Assembly (NCBI GenBank): GCA_902760645.1
Contig: CACWHC010000006.1
Coordinates: forward strand, 1-64,000
Direction of reading: 5' to 3'
DNA length: 64,000 nt
Origin: an uncultured bacterium
Lineage (GTDB): Bacteria > Cyanobacteriota > Vampirovibrionia > Gastranaerophilales > Gastranaerophilaceae
The position numbers were made by a program, and so were the translations under genes. Shown in pieces: positions 19,856-26,752 of this stretch (positions are counted from its first letter, which is position 1; each line of letters begins with the position of its first letter). The notes beneath the pieces are model-generated. The model ran no database searches. It saw only the letters and a list, made by a program, of their open reading frames with translations, and was not told the DNA's origin.

Positions 19856-19912
19856 ATGTGCAATGACAATTTATATTTGACGAATGATAATATTTCTGTA
19901 AAGGAGATTTAA
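19856..19912 (+). CDS. Possible 18-aa leader peptide before the glutaredoxin gene
   Basis: An ATG with TGGAG 8 bases upstream opens an 18-codon frame (MCNDNLYLTNDNISVKEI). It stops 4 bases before the glutaredoxin start, and its last codons contain that gene's AAAGGAG ribosome binding site. Translation of it would pass over the downstream RBS, so it could couple or modulate glutaredoxin expression. Nothing in the peptide itself suggests attenuation, and chance occurrence is possible. Confidence 0.35.
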   Translation: MCNDNLYLTNDNISVKEI

Positions 19913-19916
19913 ATAT

Positions 19917-20150
19917 ATGTTAGATTTATACTATTCAGAAACATGTCCTTATTGCATGAAGGTATTGAATTATTTTAATTCCAAAGGTATTGATTTTAAT
20001 TTAAAAGATATTCATATATCTGAAAACTATGATACTCTCATGCGTGTAGGGCATATTCCGCAGGTGCCGTTTTTAATTGATACGTCATCGGGACATGCCA
20101 TGTATGATTCAGACAGTATTATTTCGTATGTTGAAAGTAAATATGCGTAA
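19917..20150 (+). CDS. Glutaredoxin-like protein
   Basis: 77 aa, a single thioredoxin-fold domain of glutaredoxin size. The dithiol active site ETCPYCMK (CPYC) lies at residues 9-14 region, the cis-Pro segment is QVPFLID, and the C-terminal helix carries SDSIISYVESKY. It would reduce disulfides or glutathione-type mixed disulfides in the cytoplasm. Whether glutathione exists here is unknown. The RBS is AAAGGAG. The Hcp-like gene begins 16 bases after its stop, so the two are likely one operon. That suggests the glutaredoxin could act on, or alongside, the Hcp homologue. Confidence 0.85.
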   Translation: MLDLYYSETCPYCMKVLNYFNSKGIDFNLKDIHISENYDTLMRVGHIPQVPFLIDTSSGHAMYDSDSIISYVESKYA

Positions 20151-20165
20151 TAGATAGGCTTTGTT

Positions 20166-21722
20166 GTGTTTAATTTTTATCAAGATAATACCGAATATAA
20201 TGAGTGTGTTACAAAGGGAGTTTGTAGCGCTCATCCCGGTGTGGTTGCTCTTAAAGAAGTTATTCTGTTAATTTTAAAACAGTCTTCATTCTACATATTG
20301 AAGTTAAAGTCGTTCGAATATGATACATATTCTTATGAACGTTCATTATTGTGTTCTTTAACCTCAATATTTTCAGGTTCCGCTTTAAGTAACGAAAACT
20401 TGCTGAGTATTATTTCTACTTCTTATAACTTATTAGTTAAAATAAGGACTGTTTATTCAGAATTATGCAGGGCAAAAAATATAAAACCTGCTGAGTTAAA
20501 ATTTAAAATAAAGCTTACGCCTGATATGAGTATAAGTGATATAACCGCTGTCGGGGAAAAGCTTTTTAACGGTGAAAATTCCGCTTCGGGTTGCGAGAAA
20601 AAATATGCTGTTGATTTGGTTAATATAATTTTAAAAAATTTATCATTTAATCTTGTTTTACTAAGTGAATATACGGATTTGCCGCAGCATTGTATAAATT
20701 CTGTTTTGGATACTCTTAATTTGCAAAACAAATTTAGTACCCCAATTAAAAGATATTATTCTTTGATTTTAAAACTTGTTGATACAAATCATTTTGTATT
20801 AAAAGTTTTAAGTGAATTTTTGAGTGTAAATTTCGGTTCTGTTTCAAAAACTGAAGTTGATTTTTCATCATCAAAGGGGAAAGCTGTTCTTGTATCCGGT
20901 AATTCTTATTTAGATTTGTACAAATTATTGGAGTATGTCCAAAATTATGATATTGATGTTTATACACACGATGATTTGTTAACGGCACATGTTTATGATT
21001 CTTTTAAAAAATTTAAAAACCTGAAAGGCCATTTCGGAAATTGTTCGGATAACTGTTTGCTTGATTTTTCTACTTTCCCCGGTGCAATACTTTTAACTAA
21101 ATATTTTTCTACGAATTTGGAATATCTTTACAGGGGCAGATTGTTTACTACAGCTGATGTTATTCCAAAAGGTGTCAGTATGGTATCAGCAAACGATTTC
21201 TCGCCTGTAGCAATTTCTGCTGTTGAGTCAAAAGGGTTTGCAAAAGGACAAAAACGCCAGAAGCAGATTATTGGTTTTGATAAAAATGAATTTTTTGATA
21301 TCCTTGCGGAAATTTCCGACAAATTGAAGTCAGGTGTTATAAAACGTATTGTCGTAATATATCCGTTTAAGAATCCTGTAAATTCAATTTTAAATTTTTC
21401 AAAAGAGTTTAATGATTCTGATTTTATAATCAATTTTAATTCGTTTGATATCAAGGATTTAAAAAATATTTATTCTTTAAATTTTGCTTATAGTAACAGA
21501 ATGATAAATGACGTTTTGGATATGATGTTTGAATATTTAAATATTGATAAGAGTGCGTATACTTTTTATTTTTCAATATGTGATGCAGCTACAATTTCTG
21601 ATATTATATATTTGCACTCAATAAAATTCACCAATATTTTTGTTTCAGATTGCGTTCCAAATATTATTAATCCGGGTCTGCATAAATTTATAGTAACCTT
21701 GTATAATTTAAATAAATATTGA
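20166..21722 (+). CDS. Hybrid-cluster-protein (Hcp) homologue without cluster ligands
   Basis: 518 aa against about 550 for Hcp, from GTG 20166. Collinear similarity to Hcp, compared from memory, is clear: VLVSG near 242, IDVYTH near 263, FPGAILLT, GRLFTT, SGVIKRIVV near 390, and a C-terminal INPGLHKFIV. Every hybrid-cluster ligand of Desulfovibrio Hcp appears replaced: H244 to N246, E268 to D270, C312 to F314, C406 to F401, C434 to S426, C459 to S443, E494 to D473, and K496 to A475. Of the four N-terminal Fe-S cysteines only C14 and C20 remain. The frame is intact, so this is a divergent pseudoenzyme rather than a decayed gene. It follows a glutaredoxin gene and precedes the ATP synthase operon. 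Its role is unknown. Confidence 0.75.
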   Translation: MFNFYQDNTEYNECVTKGVCSAHPGVVALKEVILLILKQSSFYILKLKSFEYDTYSYERSLLCSLTSIFSGSALSNENLLSIISTSYNLLVKIRTVYSELCRAKNIKPAELKFKIKLTPDMSISDITAVGEKLFNGENSASGCEKKYAVDLVNIILKNLSFNLVLLSEYTDLPQHCINSVLDTLNLQNKFSTPIKRYYSLILKLVDTNHFVLKVLSEFLSVNFGSVSKTEVDFSSSKGKAVLVSGNSYLDLYKLLEYVQNYDIDVYTHDDLLTAHVYDSFKKFKNLKGHFGNCSDNCLLDFSTFPGAILLTKYFSTNLEYLYRGRLFTTADVIPKGVSMVSANDFSPVAISAVESKGFAKGQKRQKQIIGFDKNEFFDILAEISDKLKSGVIKRIVVIYPFKNPVNSILNFSKEFNDSDFIINFNSFDIKDLKNIYSLNFAYSNRMINDVLDMMFEYLNIDKSAYTFYFSICDAATISDIIYLHSIKFTNIFVSDCVPNIINPGLHKFIVTLYNLNKY

Positions 21723-21789: not shown

Positions 21790-22479
21790 ATGGAACATTG
21801 GATATATGTTTTTCATATATTTGGACATAAAATTTCGGTAAATTTAGATACTGTATTTACAATGTGGTTTGCAATGATTTCATTGCTCATATTTGCCTTT
21901 ATTGCTACCCGTAAACTTTCAATAATTCCAAATAAGTTACAGGCTGCATGTGAGGGTTTGATGAACTTCTTTTGGGGACTTATGGATTCAATGATGCCTG
22001 CCGATAACAGGAAGCATGTTCCTTTGGTTGCATCATTATTTTTGTTTATTTTGTTCGCAAATCTTATGGGTCAGCTCCCGTTGAGAATTATTCATTTAAA
22101 AGAAGGGGAATTGGCTTCTCCGACAAATGATATAAATATGACAGCGGCAATGGCTGTTATTGTTCTGATATATTATGTTACGGCGGGTATTATAAAAAAG
22201 AAACATAAATTTTTGTTAAAGGATTTTTCTTTTGTAAGTATAATAATGATGTTTGTTGATTTATTGGAAATGATAACAAGACCATTGAGTTTGGCAATCC
22301 GTCTTTTTGCCAATATATTTGCAGGAGAAGTCCTTGTGTCTATAGCTCTTGCAGCATATGCATATTTTGCACCGTTACCTGTAATGCTATTCGAAATTCT
22401 TGTCGCATTTATTCAGGCTACGGTATTTATGATGTTAACTATGGCATATATAGGCGGTGCAACAGGTGAGGAACATTAG
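21790..22479 (+). CDS. atpB: ATP synthase F0 subunit a
   Basis: 229 aa membrane protein, the stator subunit that forms the two proton half-channels against the c-ring. The essential arginine lies in RPLSLAIRLFANIFAGE near residue 175, and the C-terminal helix contains FIQATVFMMLTMAYI. It starts the operon a-c-b'-b-delta-alpha-gamma. This order with two b-type genes and no beta/epsilon in the operon is the cyanobacterial and chloroplast-like layout. No atpI precedes it. Expression is from the promoter just upstream, with a strong RBS. Confidence 0.95.
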   Translation: MEHWIYVFHIFGHKISVNLDTVFTMWFAMISLLIFAFIATRKLSIIPNKLQAACEGLMNFFWGLMDSMMPADNRKHVPLVASLFLFILFANLMGQLPLRIIHLKEGELASPTNDINMTAAMAVIVLIYYVTAGIIKKKHKFLLKDFSFVSIIMMFVDLLEMITRPLSLAIRLFANIFAGEVLVSIALAAYAYFAPLPVMLFEILVAFIQATVFMMLTMAYIGGATGEEH

Positions 22480-22509
22480 AAAATTTAATTAAAAATAAAG
22501 GAGAGAATT

Positions 22510-22731
22510 ATGGAAAATTTAGCACAATTAGGAGCAGGTATTGCAATCGGTTTTGGTGCCACCGGTGCAGGTTTGGGTATTGGTATTGCTACAAAGGGTT
22601 TAATGGATGCTATTTCCCGTCAACCGGAAATAGCAGGTAAGGCTGTGGGCTTCTTCCTTGTTGGTGCAGCTCTGGCTGAAGCTTGTGCATTGTATGCTTT
22701 TGTAATTGCCTTCCAATTGTTAGCAAAGTAG
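22510..22731 (+). CDS. atpE: ATP synthase F0 subunit c
   Basis: 73 aa hairpin of two membrane helices. Helix 1 is glycine-rich (GAGLGIGIATKG), the polar loop has SRQPE, and the ion-binding glutamate is E57 in ALAEACALYAF. The Gln of helix 1 and the Ser/Thr after the Glu that mark sodium-binding rings are absent (Ile and Ala/Cys instead), so proton coupling is more likely. It forms the rotor ring in the membrane. AAAGGAGAGAATT gives a very strong RBS, as expected for the subunit needed in most copies. Confidence 0.95.
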   Translation: MENLAQLGAGIAIGFGATGAGLGIGIATKGLMDAISRQPEIAGKAVGFFLVGAALAEACALYAFVIAFQLLAK

Positions 22732-22744
22732 TTTAGAGGCGATT

Positions 22745-23203
22745 ATGGAATTTAATGCAACTTTTCTTGTATCGATGTTTAGTTTTATTGTGTTTGTCTT
22801 TTTGATGAACAAGCTTTTTTATGCACCGATTACGAAAGTTATTGAAGAACGTGAAAAGTTGATGGCATCAAATTATGATGATGCACAAAAAATGAACAGT
22901 AAGGCTGACGGTTTGTTAAAAGAGCGTGATGAAAAACTCTCATCAGCTGAAGCTTCGGCAAGAAAAACTATTGCAGAAAAAATTCAGGAATTCAATCTTG
23001 AAAGCAAGAACGTTATCAAAGATGCTGTTGAAAAATCTTCTTCAGAAATCGCTGATAAAAAACAAGAACTCAAGCAAGAGTATTCTGATGCTCAAACTGT
23101 TTTAAATTCACAAATTGAAAGTTTAGCAAAAGCGGTCGAGGCAAAGGTTCTTGGTATTGAAGAAAACTCTTATATGCATAAGTCAGGGGATAATAATGAG
23201 TGA
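22745..23203 (+). CDS. atpF': ATP synthase F0 subunit b' (first b-type subunit)
   Basis: 152 aa with one N-terminal membrane helix (FLVSMFSFIVFVFLMNKLFY), then APITKVIEERE and a long charged helix. This is the peripheral-stalk b-type subunit that lies first, next to c, as b' does in cyanobacteria. It would pair with the following b gene to make a heterodimeric stalk. Its stop overlaps the next gene by 8 bases (ATGAGTGA). Which of the two is b and which b' is inferred from gene order only. Confidence 0.85.
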   Translation: MEFNATFLVSMFSFIVFVFLMNKLFYAPITKVIEEREKLMASNYDDAQKMNSKADGLLKERDEKLSSAEASARKTIAEKIQEFNLESKNVIKDAVEKSSSEIADKKQELKQEYSDAQTVLNSQIESLAKAVEAKVLGIEENSYMHKSGDNNE

Positions 23204-23705
23204 ATTGGGTAATCTTTGGAATTTAATAGTAGCATCTAACGCTTTTAATTTCGTTGTGCTTGTCGCAATTATTGCTGTTGTTATGTCTAAACTTAAAGTA
23301 TCTGAGATGTTGTCTGCTTTAAAAGATAGTATTATTGCTAAAATTGAATCATCAAAAAAGGCAAAGGCTGATGCCGAGTTATCCTTATCTGATGCTATGG
23401 ATAAAGTCAAAAATCTTGATTCTGAGGTAGATAATAAATTATCGCTTGCAAAAATGCAGGCTGATAATGTTGCAAAATCTATTCAGGAGGCAGCAAACAG
23501 ACGTGTAAAACAGATTTCGTCCAATGTTGATAAAGTTATAGATTCGGAAAGTAAAACACTATATACCAAATTGAGTGATGATACTGTCAGGGCTTCTGTA
23601 AGTATTGCTACGGATTATATTACTCGCCGATTAAAAGAAAATCCGAATTTACACAACAGATATATTGATGAGGGGATAAATGAATTGGAAAAGGTGGTAT
23701 TTTAG
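23196..23705 (+). CDS. atpF: ATP synthase F0 subunit b
   Basis: About 169 aa from ATG 23196, which has AGGGGATAAT upstream. An N-terminal membrane helix (AFNFVVLVAIIAVVMSK) is followed by a long coiled-coil helix rich in Lys, Ala and Asp, as usual for the second stalk. The earlier in-frame start at 23151 lies within b' and lacks an RBS. It overlaps b' by 8 bases and is followed 2 bases later by atpH, so expression is translationally coupled. It joins F0 to the delta subunit on top of F1. Confidence 0.85.
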   Translation: MSELGNLWNLIVASNAFNFVVLVAIIAVVMSKLKVSEMLSALKDSIIAKIESSKKAKADAELSLSDAMDKVKNLDSEVDNKLSLAKMQADNVAKSIQEAANRRVKQISSNVDKVIDSESKTLYTKLSDDTVRASVSIATDYITRRLKENPNLHNRYIDEGINELEKVVF

Positions 23706-23707
23706 TT

Positions 23708-24274
23708 ATGAGTATTAATAATGAGAAAAAAATATCATCCGCTGCTAAAAATTATGCAGATGCAATTGTAGATATGATAAGGGATAACAATTTATCATTC
23801 GATGATGTTGCAAAAGATATGAGTGTTATAAAAGAGGCCCTCGTAAATTCCGAGGATTTATCTGCTGTAATGATAAATCCGTCAATTAACCTTGAAGTTA
23901 AAAAAGATATTATTATATCAGTTTTCAAAGATAGAGTTTCTCAGTCTTTATTAAATTATTTGCAAATATTAGTAGAAAAAAATCGTATCGGTGAGTTCCC
24001 TCAAATTTATTCTCAGTTTATTATTAAAATGAATGAAGTAAATAATATTCAGCCTGTTACGGTTGTTTCTGCCGTTGAACTTAATCCTGAGCAGAAATTG
24101 AGAATTGTATCAAAGCTTTCAGAAAAATTGAAAAAGACTGTATTGCCTGATTGGTGTGTTGATGAAAGTATAATTGCAGGAATTATTATAAAAATTTATG
24201 ATAATGTTATTGATATGAGTGTAAGGCATCGTATTGATAAATTAAATAAAAGCTTGTTGTTAAGTAATAAATAA
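23708..24274 (+). CDS. atpH: ATP synthase F1 subunit delta
   Basis: 188 aa with the delta/OSCP pattern: an N-terminal helical domain ([41 protein letters not shown]) and a C-terminal part ([25 protein letters not shown], then [21 protein letters not shown]). It links the peripheral stalk to the alpha/beta hexamer at the cytoplasmic tip. It sits 2 bases after atpF and 11 bases before atpA. Confidence 0.92.
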
Positions 24275-24285
24275 GAGAGGTAAAA

Positions 24286-25797
24286 ATGGCAGCTATAAAA
24301 CCTGATGAAATAAGTTCAATTATAAGAAGTAAAATTTCTGATTTTGAGATAAAAACAGAGGTTTCAAATACCGGCAGCGTAATCGAAATTGGTGACGGTA
24401 TAGCTCGTATTTACGGTTTGAGAAATGCGATGGCAAGTGAGCTTGTTGTATTTGATGATGGCAAAGATACCCTGGGTATTACCATGAATCTTGATGAGGA
24501 TAATGTTGGTGTTGTTGTTCTTGGTGCTTATTCTCAAATAAAAGAGGGTATGACGGTTAGAACTACCGGTAAAATTGCGTCTGTTCCCGTTGGAGATGGT
24601 GTGATTGGCAGAATTATTGATCCGACAGGTAAGCCGATTGACGGTAAAGGAGATTATGAATATTCTAAGACAAGACCTATTGAAAGAGTCGCTCCGGGTA
24701 TTGTTACTAGGAAGTCTGTTTGTCAGCCTCTTCAGACAGGTTTGACTGCTATAGATGCTCTTACACCTATTGGCAGAGGACAAAGAGAACTAATTATAGG
24801 TGACCGTCAAACCGGTAAAACAGCGATTGCCCTTGATGCTATTATTAATCAAAAGGGTCAGAACGTTATTTGTATTTATGTAGCAATCGGGCAAAAGGCT
24901 TCTACTGTTGCACAAATTGCGAAAACGTTGGAAGAACATGGTGCTATGGACTATTCGGTTATTGTTTCATCTACTGCTGATGAGGCTGCTCCTCTGCAAT
25001 ATATTGCTCCGTTTGCCGGTGTTACTATTGCAGAAGAATTTATGGAACAGGGTAAAGATGTTCTTATAGTATATGATGATTTGAGTAAGCATGCACAGGC
25101 TTATCGTGCAATGAGTTTGCTTCTGAAAAGACCGCCCGGACGTGAAGCTTATCCCGGGGATGTATTCTATTTACATTCAAGACTTTTGGAGAGAGCTGTT
25201 AAGTTGAATGACTCTCTTGGTGGTGGTAGTATTACTGCATTGCCTATTATTGAAACTCAGGCAGGTGATGTTTCCGCATATATCCCTACTAATGTAATTT
25301 CTATTACGGATGGTCAAATTTTTCTGGAGGCAAATTATTTTAACGCAGGGGTTAGACCTGCTATAAACGCAGGTATTTCTGTATCTCGTGTTGGCGGTAA
25401 TGCTCAGACTAAGGGTATTAAGCAGGTTGCCGGTAAATTGAGGCTTGATTTGGCACAGTATAGAGAATTAGAAGCGTTTGCTCAGTTTGCTTCCGATTTG
25501 GATCAGACTACCAAAAATCAATTATTGAGAGGTGAAAAGCTTACTGAAGTATTAAAGCAGCCTCAGTATCATCCGTTGAGTGTTTCCGCACAAATTGCAG
25601 TTTTATATGCTGCAAACGAAGGTTATTTGGATGATGTAGATAATACTGATGTTCAAAGATTTAAAAATGACTTGTGTAATTATCTGAACGGTAATCTGAA
25701 AGAACTTATGAAAAAGTTAGATGATGGCGGTTCTTTGTCAGATGATGATAAAAAATCGTTGAATGATGCAATCAGTACTTTTAAAAAGACTTTTTAA
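24286..25797 (+). CDS. atpA: ATP synthase F1 subunit alpha
   Basis: 503 aa, standard length. The P-loop [13 protein letters not shown] lies near residue 173, [21 protein letters not shown] precedes it, and [33 protein letters not shown] is the conserved central block. It forms the non-catalytic nucleotide sites of the F1 hexamer on the cytoplasmic face. The catalytic beta subunit is not in this operon. AGAGAGGTAAAA is the RBS. The C-terminus after residue 470 is Lys/Asp-rich as usual. Confidence 0.97.
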
Positions 25798-25819
25798 AAT
25801 ATAACAGGTAAAATATTAT

Positions 25820-26752
25820 ATGGCGAATTTAAAGGATATAAAAAACAGAATAAAGAGTGTAGAGAGTACTAAGAAAATTACTCGTGCGATGAAGATGGTT
25901 GCTTCTGCAAAAGTTAAAAAAGCTGAAATGACGGTTAAGGCTTCTCGCCCGTTTACGGAAAATCTTAATGCCGTATTTAAAAAAATGCTTGCGTATGTTT
26001 CTGATTTTGATTCTTACTCTTTGAAAATTAAAAGTCCTGTTGATAATTATCCTGAATTACTAAAAGTCAGAGAAATTGATGCTGTCGGTTTGCTTGTAAA
26101 TACTTCTAACAAGGGATTGGCAGGTGCATACAATGCAAATGTTGTAAGACGAACTTTGACTAAGATTAAAGAATATTCCGATAATGGTATTAAAACTTAT
26201 TTGTTTATAATCGGACAAAAAGGGCTTACCGCCTTAAAACGGAGAGTGGCTGATTATAACTGTGAGATTGCTAAATCTTATATTGCTATTGCAAATAATC
26301 CTGATCCTGAGTCAGCAAAACTCGTAACGGAGGATTTGGCAGAATATTTTGTAGGCGGTAAAATTGATAAAATTGAAGTAATGACTACACGTTTTAAAAA
26401 TATGATGAGTTATTATGTTGAAGAATGGAATGTACTTCCCCTGAAAACCTTATCGGAAGACCGTGACAAGTTATATGACGGTGTAATTGACCCATTGATG
26501 GAGTTTGAACCTGATAAGCATCATATTTTGCAGAAAATTGTACCTATGTATATTACAAATATAATATATCAGTCTTTGCTTGAGGCACAGGCGAGTGAAT
26601 TGGCATCAAGAATGACTGCTATGTCAGCTGCTACAAATAGTGCTGAAAAAGTGATTGGAACTTTATCTGTGGAATATAACAAATTACGTCAGGCTGCAAT
26701 TACGAACGAAATTGTGGAAGTTATCTCAGGTGCTAATGCACAGATGAATTGA
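25820..26752 (+). CDS. atpG: ATP synthase F1 subunit gamma
   Basis: 310 aa, with the canonical ends of the central-stalk subunit: MANLKDIKNRIKSVESTKKITRAMKMVASAKVK at the N-terminus and LRQAAITNEIVEVISGANA at the C-terminus. It rotates inside the alpha/beta ring. It is last in the operon. I looked for the 30-40-residue regulatory insertion of photosynthetic gammas and saw no clear match. Its 3' end overlaps the convergent HExxH protein gene by 20 bases. No terminator is visible, so convergent transcripts may overlap. Confidence 0.94.
   Translation: MANLKDIKNRIKSVESTKKITRAMKMVASAKVKKAEMTVKASRPFTENLNAVFKKMLAYVSDFDSYSLKIKSPVDNYPELLKVREIDAVGLLVNTSNKGLAGAYNANVVRRTLTKIKEYSDNGIKTYLFIIGQKGLTALKRRVADYNCEIAKSYIAIANNPDPESAKLVTEDLAEYFVGGKIDKIEVMTTRFKNMMSYYVEEWNVLPLKTLSEDRDKLYDGVIDPLMEFEPDKHHILQKIVPMYITNIIYQSLLEAQASELASRMTAMSAATNSAEKVIGTLSVEYNKLRQAAITNEIVEVISGANAQMN

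Follow-up and report, generated by a model that had tools for sequence, protein, structure and literature searches.

The window analysed here is a stretch of 64,000 nt from contig CACWHC010000006.1 (GCA_902760645.1), which belongs to a member of the Gastranaerophilaceae, non-photosynthetic relatives of cyanobacteria. The features under study are a glutaredoxin gene and, directly downstream on the same strand, a gene that has been named hcpL:

19863-19891, forward strand: candidate promoter of the sigma-70 type ahead of grx (ATGACA-17-GATAAT), weakly supported
19917-20150, forward strand: grx, a small glutaredoxin/GST_N-like protein of 77 aa with a CPYC motif (matches to PF13417 and PF00462)
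20166-21722, forward strand: hcpL, a degenerate paralogue of hybrid cluster protein (Hcp), on the basis of its Prismane match and an AF2 model with Z 30.9 to D. vulgaris Hcp

The hcpL reading frame is intact, opens with GTG and encodes 518 aa, as the first-pass annotation of this DNA had reported; the glutaredoxin gene noted upstream is likewise a real reading frame, with 15 nt separating its stop codon from the hcpL GTG. An AAGGAG ribosome-binding site lies just 5' of the grx ATG, and the two genes are probably co-transcribed. The promoter candidate is not significant alone, as 17 such sites were found against 15.3 expected in shuffled sequence. ATP synthase genes (atpB, E, F, F', H, A and G) follow hcpL at 21790-26752 of the window; this neighbourhood is not conserved, as in most grx-linked relatives rpsG and rpsL come next, on the other strand.

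The product, HcpL, matches the Pfam Prismane family (PF03063) with an E value of 5.5e-23, all 78 aligned members of its family match the same profile, and its sequence matches among solved structures are Hcps. The NCBIfam hydroxylamine reductase models TIGR01703 and NF003658 are also matched (E values of 1.8e-44 and 3.1e-43), with scores below the equivalog cut-offs (152.3 bits against 367, and 148.1 against 360.8). The AF2 model (pLDDT 87.5, pTM 0.88) has the complete three-domain Hcp fold, aligning with D. vulgaris Hcp (1E1D) over 490 residues with a Z score of 30.9 and an rmsd of 3.8 Å, and HcpL thus has both the sequence and the fold of the Prismane/CODH family. The alignment to Hcp from end to end, as originally proposed, is upheld by the alignment of its relatives and by the predicted fold, but similarity to the profile fades after approximately residue 400.

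When HcpL is aligned with canonical Hcps from the same bacterial order, all eight hybrid-cluster residues (one His, two Glu and four Cys, plus the active-site Lys) are found to have been lost: H244, E268, C312, C406, C434, C459, E494 and K496, in D. vulgaris numbering, the motifs themselves having been located in the canonical sequences. The substitutions are H244 to N246, E268 to D270, C312 to F314, C406 to F401, C434 to S426, E494 to D473 and K496 to A475, while for C459 a deletion at this point leaves the exact column in doubt. The changes at these eight positions described in the first-pass annotation are therefore borne out by the multiple alignment, with this one column as the exception. 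Its further observation that two of the four N-terminal Fe-S cysteines are missing also holds, as C3 and C6 of the [4Fe-4S] motif have been lost, and C15 and C21 are retained as C14 and C20. A different register, in which the ligands might be intact, was considered and rejected: the stretch of HcpL from residue 298 to residue 471 is free of cysteine, which means that none of the four hybrid-cluster cysteines is present however the sequences are aligned, and 95 aligned orthologues agree. In every one of these 95 the canonical ligand set is destroyed, the substitutions, taken as a class, being conserved family-wide, with only single ligand letters left over (E268 in 20, a cysteine near C459 in 13 and one near C434 in 4). 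Among 120 f1 sequences, the former hybrid-ligand sites vary at background levels, with per-position entropies between the 25th and 85th percentiles.

These data support the view that HcpL is an Hcp homologue unable to bind the hybrid cluster. Because no hybrid-cluster ligands are left, activity as an NO or hydroxylamine reductase is expected to be absent, and as HcpL lacks the features that define Hcp, it is best classed in a new subfamily of the Prismane superfamily, one without a hybrid cluster, and not as an Hcp. No description of Hcp homologues without a hybrid cluster was found in the open-access literature; hence, while the fold is known, a protein of this type is apparently undescribed.

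The closest known systems are the class I Hcps (D. vulgaris 1E1D and M. thermolithotrophicus 8CNR), with which HcpL shares the three-domain fold (490 residues aligned at a Z of about 30), two of the [4Fe-4S] cysteines (C15 and C21) and many structural residues of domain 2. It differs from them in that all hybrid-cluster ligands and two of the four [4Fe-4S] cysteines are missing, the score is below the equivalog cut-off, and three cysteines, C472, C496 and C101, have been gained. Class III Hcps (M. marburgensis 7E0L and 7WSX; PMC10502027) have a related fold in domains 2 and 3, and their C67Y variant, like HcpL, is missing part of the [4Fe-4S] motif, its N-terminus being disordered (PMC10502027). 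However, in class III proteins domain 1 is shortened by the loss of its outer helices and the hybrid cluster is kept, whereas domain 1 of HcpL is full-length; HcpL aligns with class I and II structures over 480-496 residues, compared with 386 for class III. Ni,Fe-CODH belongs to the same superfamily with a Z score of only about 15. Most ligand positions of its C-cluster correspond to hybrid-cluster positions of Hcp (PMC10502027), and in HcpL the equivalent positions are all substituted. A precedent is provided by the structural groups of CODH with incomplete active sites, in which cluster ligands have changed and new cysteine motifs have been gained (PMC6344411); these keep most of the C-cluster ligands, however, while HcpL keeps none.

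The distribution of hcpL was studied through a profile search of the class followed by counting by hand. The gene is present in 181 of the 188 sampled genomes of the family, a count that leaves out G203, in which the sole match is the genome's own canonical Hcp. According to the record titles, these genomes belong to Candidatus Gastranaerophilales ('Melainabacteria'), most of them sampled from animal guts. Reading frames are open nearly throughout the family, and dN/dS between the closest orthologue pairs, calculated by the method of Nei and Gojobori and computable for 19 of 21 pairs, amounts to 0.04-0.14 for the gene as a whole, with low values in each of the three domains. This bears out the suggestion that hcpL is kept by selection. 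Ongoing decay, as a pseudogene lineage or under relaxed selection, would fit the absence of the gene without a remnant from a few genomes, as well as the single stop found in a few matches (G065, G067, G057 and G154), yet such low dN/dS values, the open frames, the near-invariant cysteines and the presence of the gene in 181 of 188 genomes make this explanation very improbable.

By contrast with hcpL, canonical Hcp is found in only about a third of family genomes by hand count, and a search of the source genome (29 contigs, 1.96 Mb, 99.8% complete) found neither a second Hcp nor any other Prismane protein. HcpL is therefore not a general partner of canonical Hcp, for about two thirds of family genomes, and the source genome too, have none, and the earlier idea of a non-catalytic partner for that enzyme is not supported. 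The genomes G273, G193, G209, G089, G234, G077, G217, G186 and G147, which are without hcpL, are also without canonical Hcp, where about a third would be expected by chance; G203 is the reverse case, with canonical Hcp present and hcpL absent. In G103, from the same genus as the source genome, the canonical gene looks split (two adjoining matches and one stop at C31:4266-5494), which suggests a recent loss of the Hcp enzyme while hcpL was kept.

Several cysteines stand out when conservation is expressed as entropy at each position of the 120 f1 sequences:

20205-20207, forward strand: C14, kept cysteine (D. vulgaris C15), in 119/120, entropy percentile 3
20223-20225, forward strand: C20, kept cysteine (D. 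vulgaris C21), in 120/120, entropy percentile 2
20466-20468, forward strand: C101, gained cysteine, in 107/120, entropy percentile 8
21042-21056, forward strand: C293 and C297 (CX3C), gains restricted to certain clades, C293 in 26/95 and C297 in 60/95
21579-21584, forward strand: C472-D473, the gained C472 directly before the former Glu ligand (E494 to D), in 111/120, entropy percentile 6
21651-21653, forward strand: C496, gained in what was the GPTLPAF loop, in 109/120, entropy percentile 7, usually co-lost with C472

C14, C20, C472, C496 and C101 are thus among the most conserved positions of HcpL, and the former E494 position that follows C472 is now mostly Asp. C293 and C297 were discarded as a core CX3C motif, being invariant in the genus but family-wide present in the minority and majority fractions listed above. 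The tree requires 6 to 7 changes for C472 or C496. In a test of independent pairs, approximately 4 to 5 of 5 to 6 pairs changed in the same direction and none in the opposite one, although with so few events the sign test gives p = 0.06-0.125. Taken together, the loss of all cluster residues, the strong selection and the new conserved cysteine pair imply that HcpL, on the evidence of sequence, must have a function other than Hcp chemistry.

In the model, C472 and C496 are on two domain 3 loops, which follow one strand and the next. Residues 1-20 have pLDDT values under 50 in both AF2 models (HcpL and one orthologue), so the position of C14 and C20 is not predicted. Guidance on this point comes from the C67Y variant of class III MmHCP, which lost one [4Fe-4S] cysteine and its [4Fe-4S] cluster; its N-terminal domain is disordered, and two loops, one around Glu434 and one around Trp461, have moved 5.3-5.8 Å into the room that this leaves (PMC10502027). 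In the alignment the counterpart of Glu434 is D473, next to C472, and the C496 position comes four residues before Trp461. As these loops are by alignment those of C472-D473 and C496, the gained cysteines should face the segment carrying C14 and C20, and by this analogy we infer that the four cysteines may meet at bonding distance.

The explanation ranked first, to which a probability of roughly 40% may be given, is that HcpL is a repurposed Hcp fold with a rebuilt four-cysteine metal or Fe-S site. An old class I Hcp paralogue would have become fixed in the Gastranaerophilaceae, giving up the NO/hydroxylamine reductase chemistry of the hybrid cluster, while its three-domain fold was retained to house a new redox site built on cysteines. 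With C14 and C20 kept from the old motif, C3 and C6 lost, and C472 and C496 newly placed in two domain 3 loops packing on the N-terminal cluster segment, a single site with four cysteine ligands could form at the interface, hold one Fe-S cluster or another thiolate-bound metal, and relay or sense redox state; where the glutaredoxin gene is adjacent, its product would act as a clade-specific redox or cofactor partner. A more specific version can be put forward only tentatively: HcpL dispensed with the hybrid cluster and had its [4Fe-4S] site rebuilt through a ligand swap across domains, C3 and C6 being replaced by C472 and C496, giving a new single-cluster redox protein encoded by a near-core gene of the family. 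The initial suggestion of a different cofactor is accordingly plausible as a general idea, though an Fe-S cluster or other metal at the four cysteines is something we infer. A single four-ligand site leaves unexplained the several lineages that are without C472 and C496 but still have C14 and C20, such as L184 and L185, in which there is no obvious substitute. The loss of both C14 and C20 from the f6 relatives likewise speaks against it.

This behaviour as two pairs, C472 and C496 usually being lost together while C14 and C20 stay, speaks for a thiol-disulfide protein that binds no metal. In the cleft of the former active site, C472 and C496 would then make up a redox-active pair, to which the N-terminal CX5C pair, in a segment predicted to be flexible, would shuttle electrons from glutaredoxin or thioredoxin. 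The neighbouring gene offers this explanation some support. Grx has a thioredoxin-like domain with a CPxC motif (E values of 5e-15 to PF13417 and 9.4e-8 to PF00462); it resembles the small glutaredoxins of the Glutaredoxin 2/GST_N-like type in its CPYC motif and cis-proline motif QVPF, but differs from GrxB equivalogs in scoring below their cut-offs and in being a single-domain protein. The grx gene immediately precedes hcpL, in the same orientation, in 60 of the 61 rows of one hcpL clade (SH-aLRT 100), with a median gap of 4.5 nt, and the pair is intact even where both flanks differ (L070 and L076). The linked copies are mostly dithiol, with CPYC or CPFC in 73 of 80, and glutathione-synthesis genes are represented in the genome by a gshB-type and a GCS2-type match; no E. 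coli-type gshA was found there. Against this, the remaining 7 linked copies have the monothiol motif CPYS, about half of the hcpL tree rows have no adjacent grx, and in other genera grx is unlinked, adjoining a panD-like reading frame in g14. Furthermore, grx is retained where hcpL has been deleted: in at least five genomes (such as G273, G077, G089, G217 and G234) the order is wecB - grx - rpsG/rpsL, the empty site being clean and any hcpL remnant absent. A thiol-disulfide function ranks second and is less likely than not. Obligate dependence on the glutaredoxin was rejected on the basis of the clean empty sites and the unlinked grx of g14. The glutaredoxin neighbour is hence a near-constant feature of one clade, unlinked elsewhere and able to survive deletion of hcpL; it is a clade-specific partner at most, and from gene order is best seen as such a partner or as sharing an operon.

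A third-ranked and unlikely explanation is that HcpL is a pseudoenzyme scaffold or regulator, the fold serving as a binding surface or the cleft binding a small molecule, with the cysteines playing a structural part. The newly conserved residues other than cysteine (P24, N188, D300, R323-G324 and N502) and the purifying selection in all three domains are what would be anticipated of such a protein. However, cysteines are the most conserved of the gained residues in domain 3, no constant partner genes were found by neighbourhood comparison in hcpL clades other than the one with grx, and a general partnership with canonical Hcp is impossible when most genomes have none.

A maximum-likelihood tree of 135 proteins places the degenerate proteins of family f1 and of the neighbouring families f6 and f7 on one side of the canonical Hcps (SH-aLRT 99, to be read with caution regarding long branches). 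P24, Y97, A274, R323 and G324 are substitutions common to all three, supporting a single degenerate lineage. In f7, L157 still has all four cubane cysteines together with C312, C406 and E268, and L166 and L167 have lost more ligands than L157; the f6 relatives L182 and L186 have C406 and C434 only, C14 and C20 being gone altogether. From these graded leftovers, the hybrid cluster seems to have decayed stepwise.

The role of Hcp has been debated for decades, and its unusual cluster seemed to be the point of the protein; a near-core gene with the fold but without the cluster separates the fold from the cofactor. The f7, f6 and f1 relatives, with their different residual ligands, form a natural series in which the loss of one cluster from a metalloenzyme, and perhaps the rebuilding of another, can be followed, and if the ligand swap is true, the repurposed protein is more widespread in the family than the ancestral enzyme. 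There is also a warning for annotation, in that automatic transfer of the name 'hydroxylamine reductase' to these gut bacteria would be wrong, and most family genomes have no Hcp enzyme at all.

In the hcpL clade of genera g17, g18, g22, g24 and g27 (L158-L165, L168-L181 and L183-L185), the profile match stops at approximately position 370-410, frames are shorter (about 485-530 aa) and domain 3 has diverged further, with equivalents of C472 and C496 in most members. In the genome of isolate STE_97 (Gastranaerophilales; contig label Sandtown_E), hcpL is present as three tandem copies, at 7998-12857 of L111.
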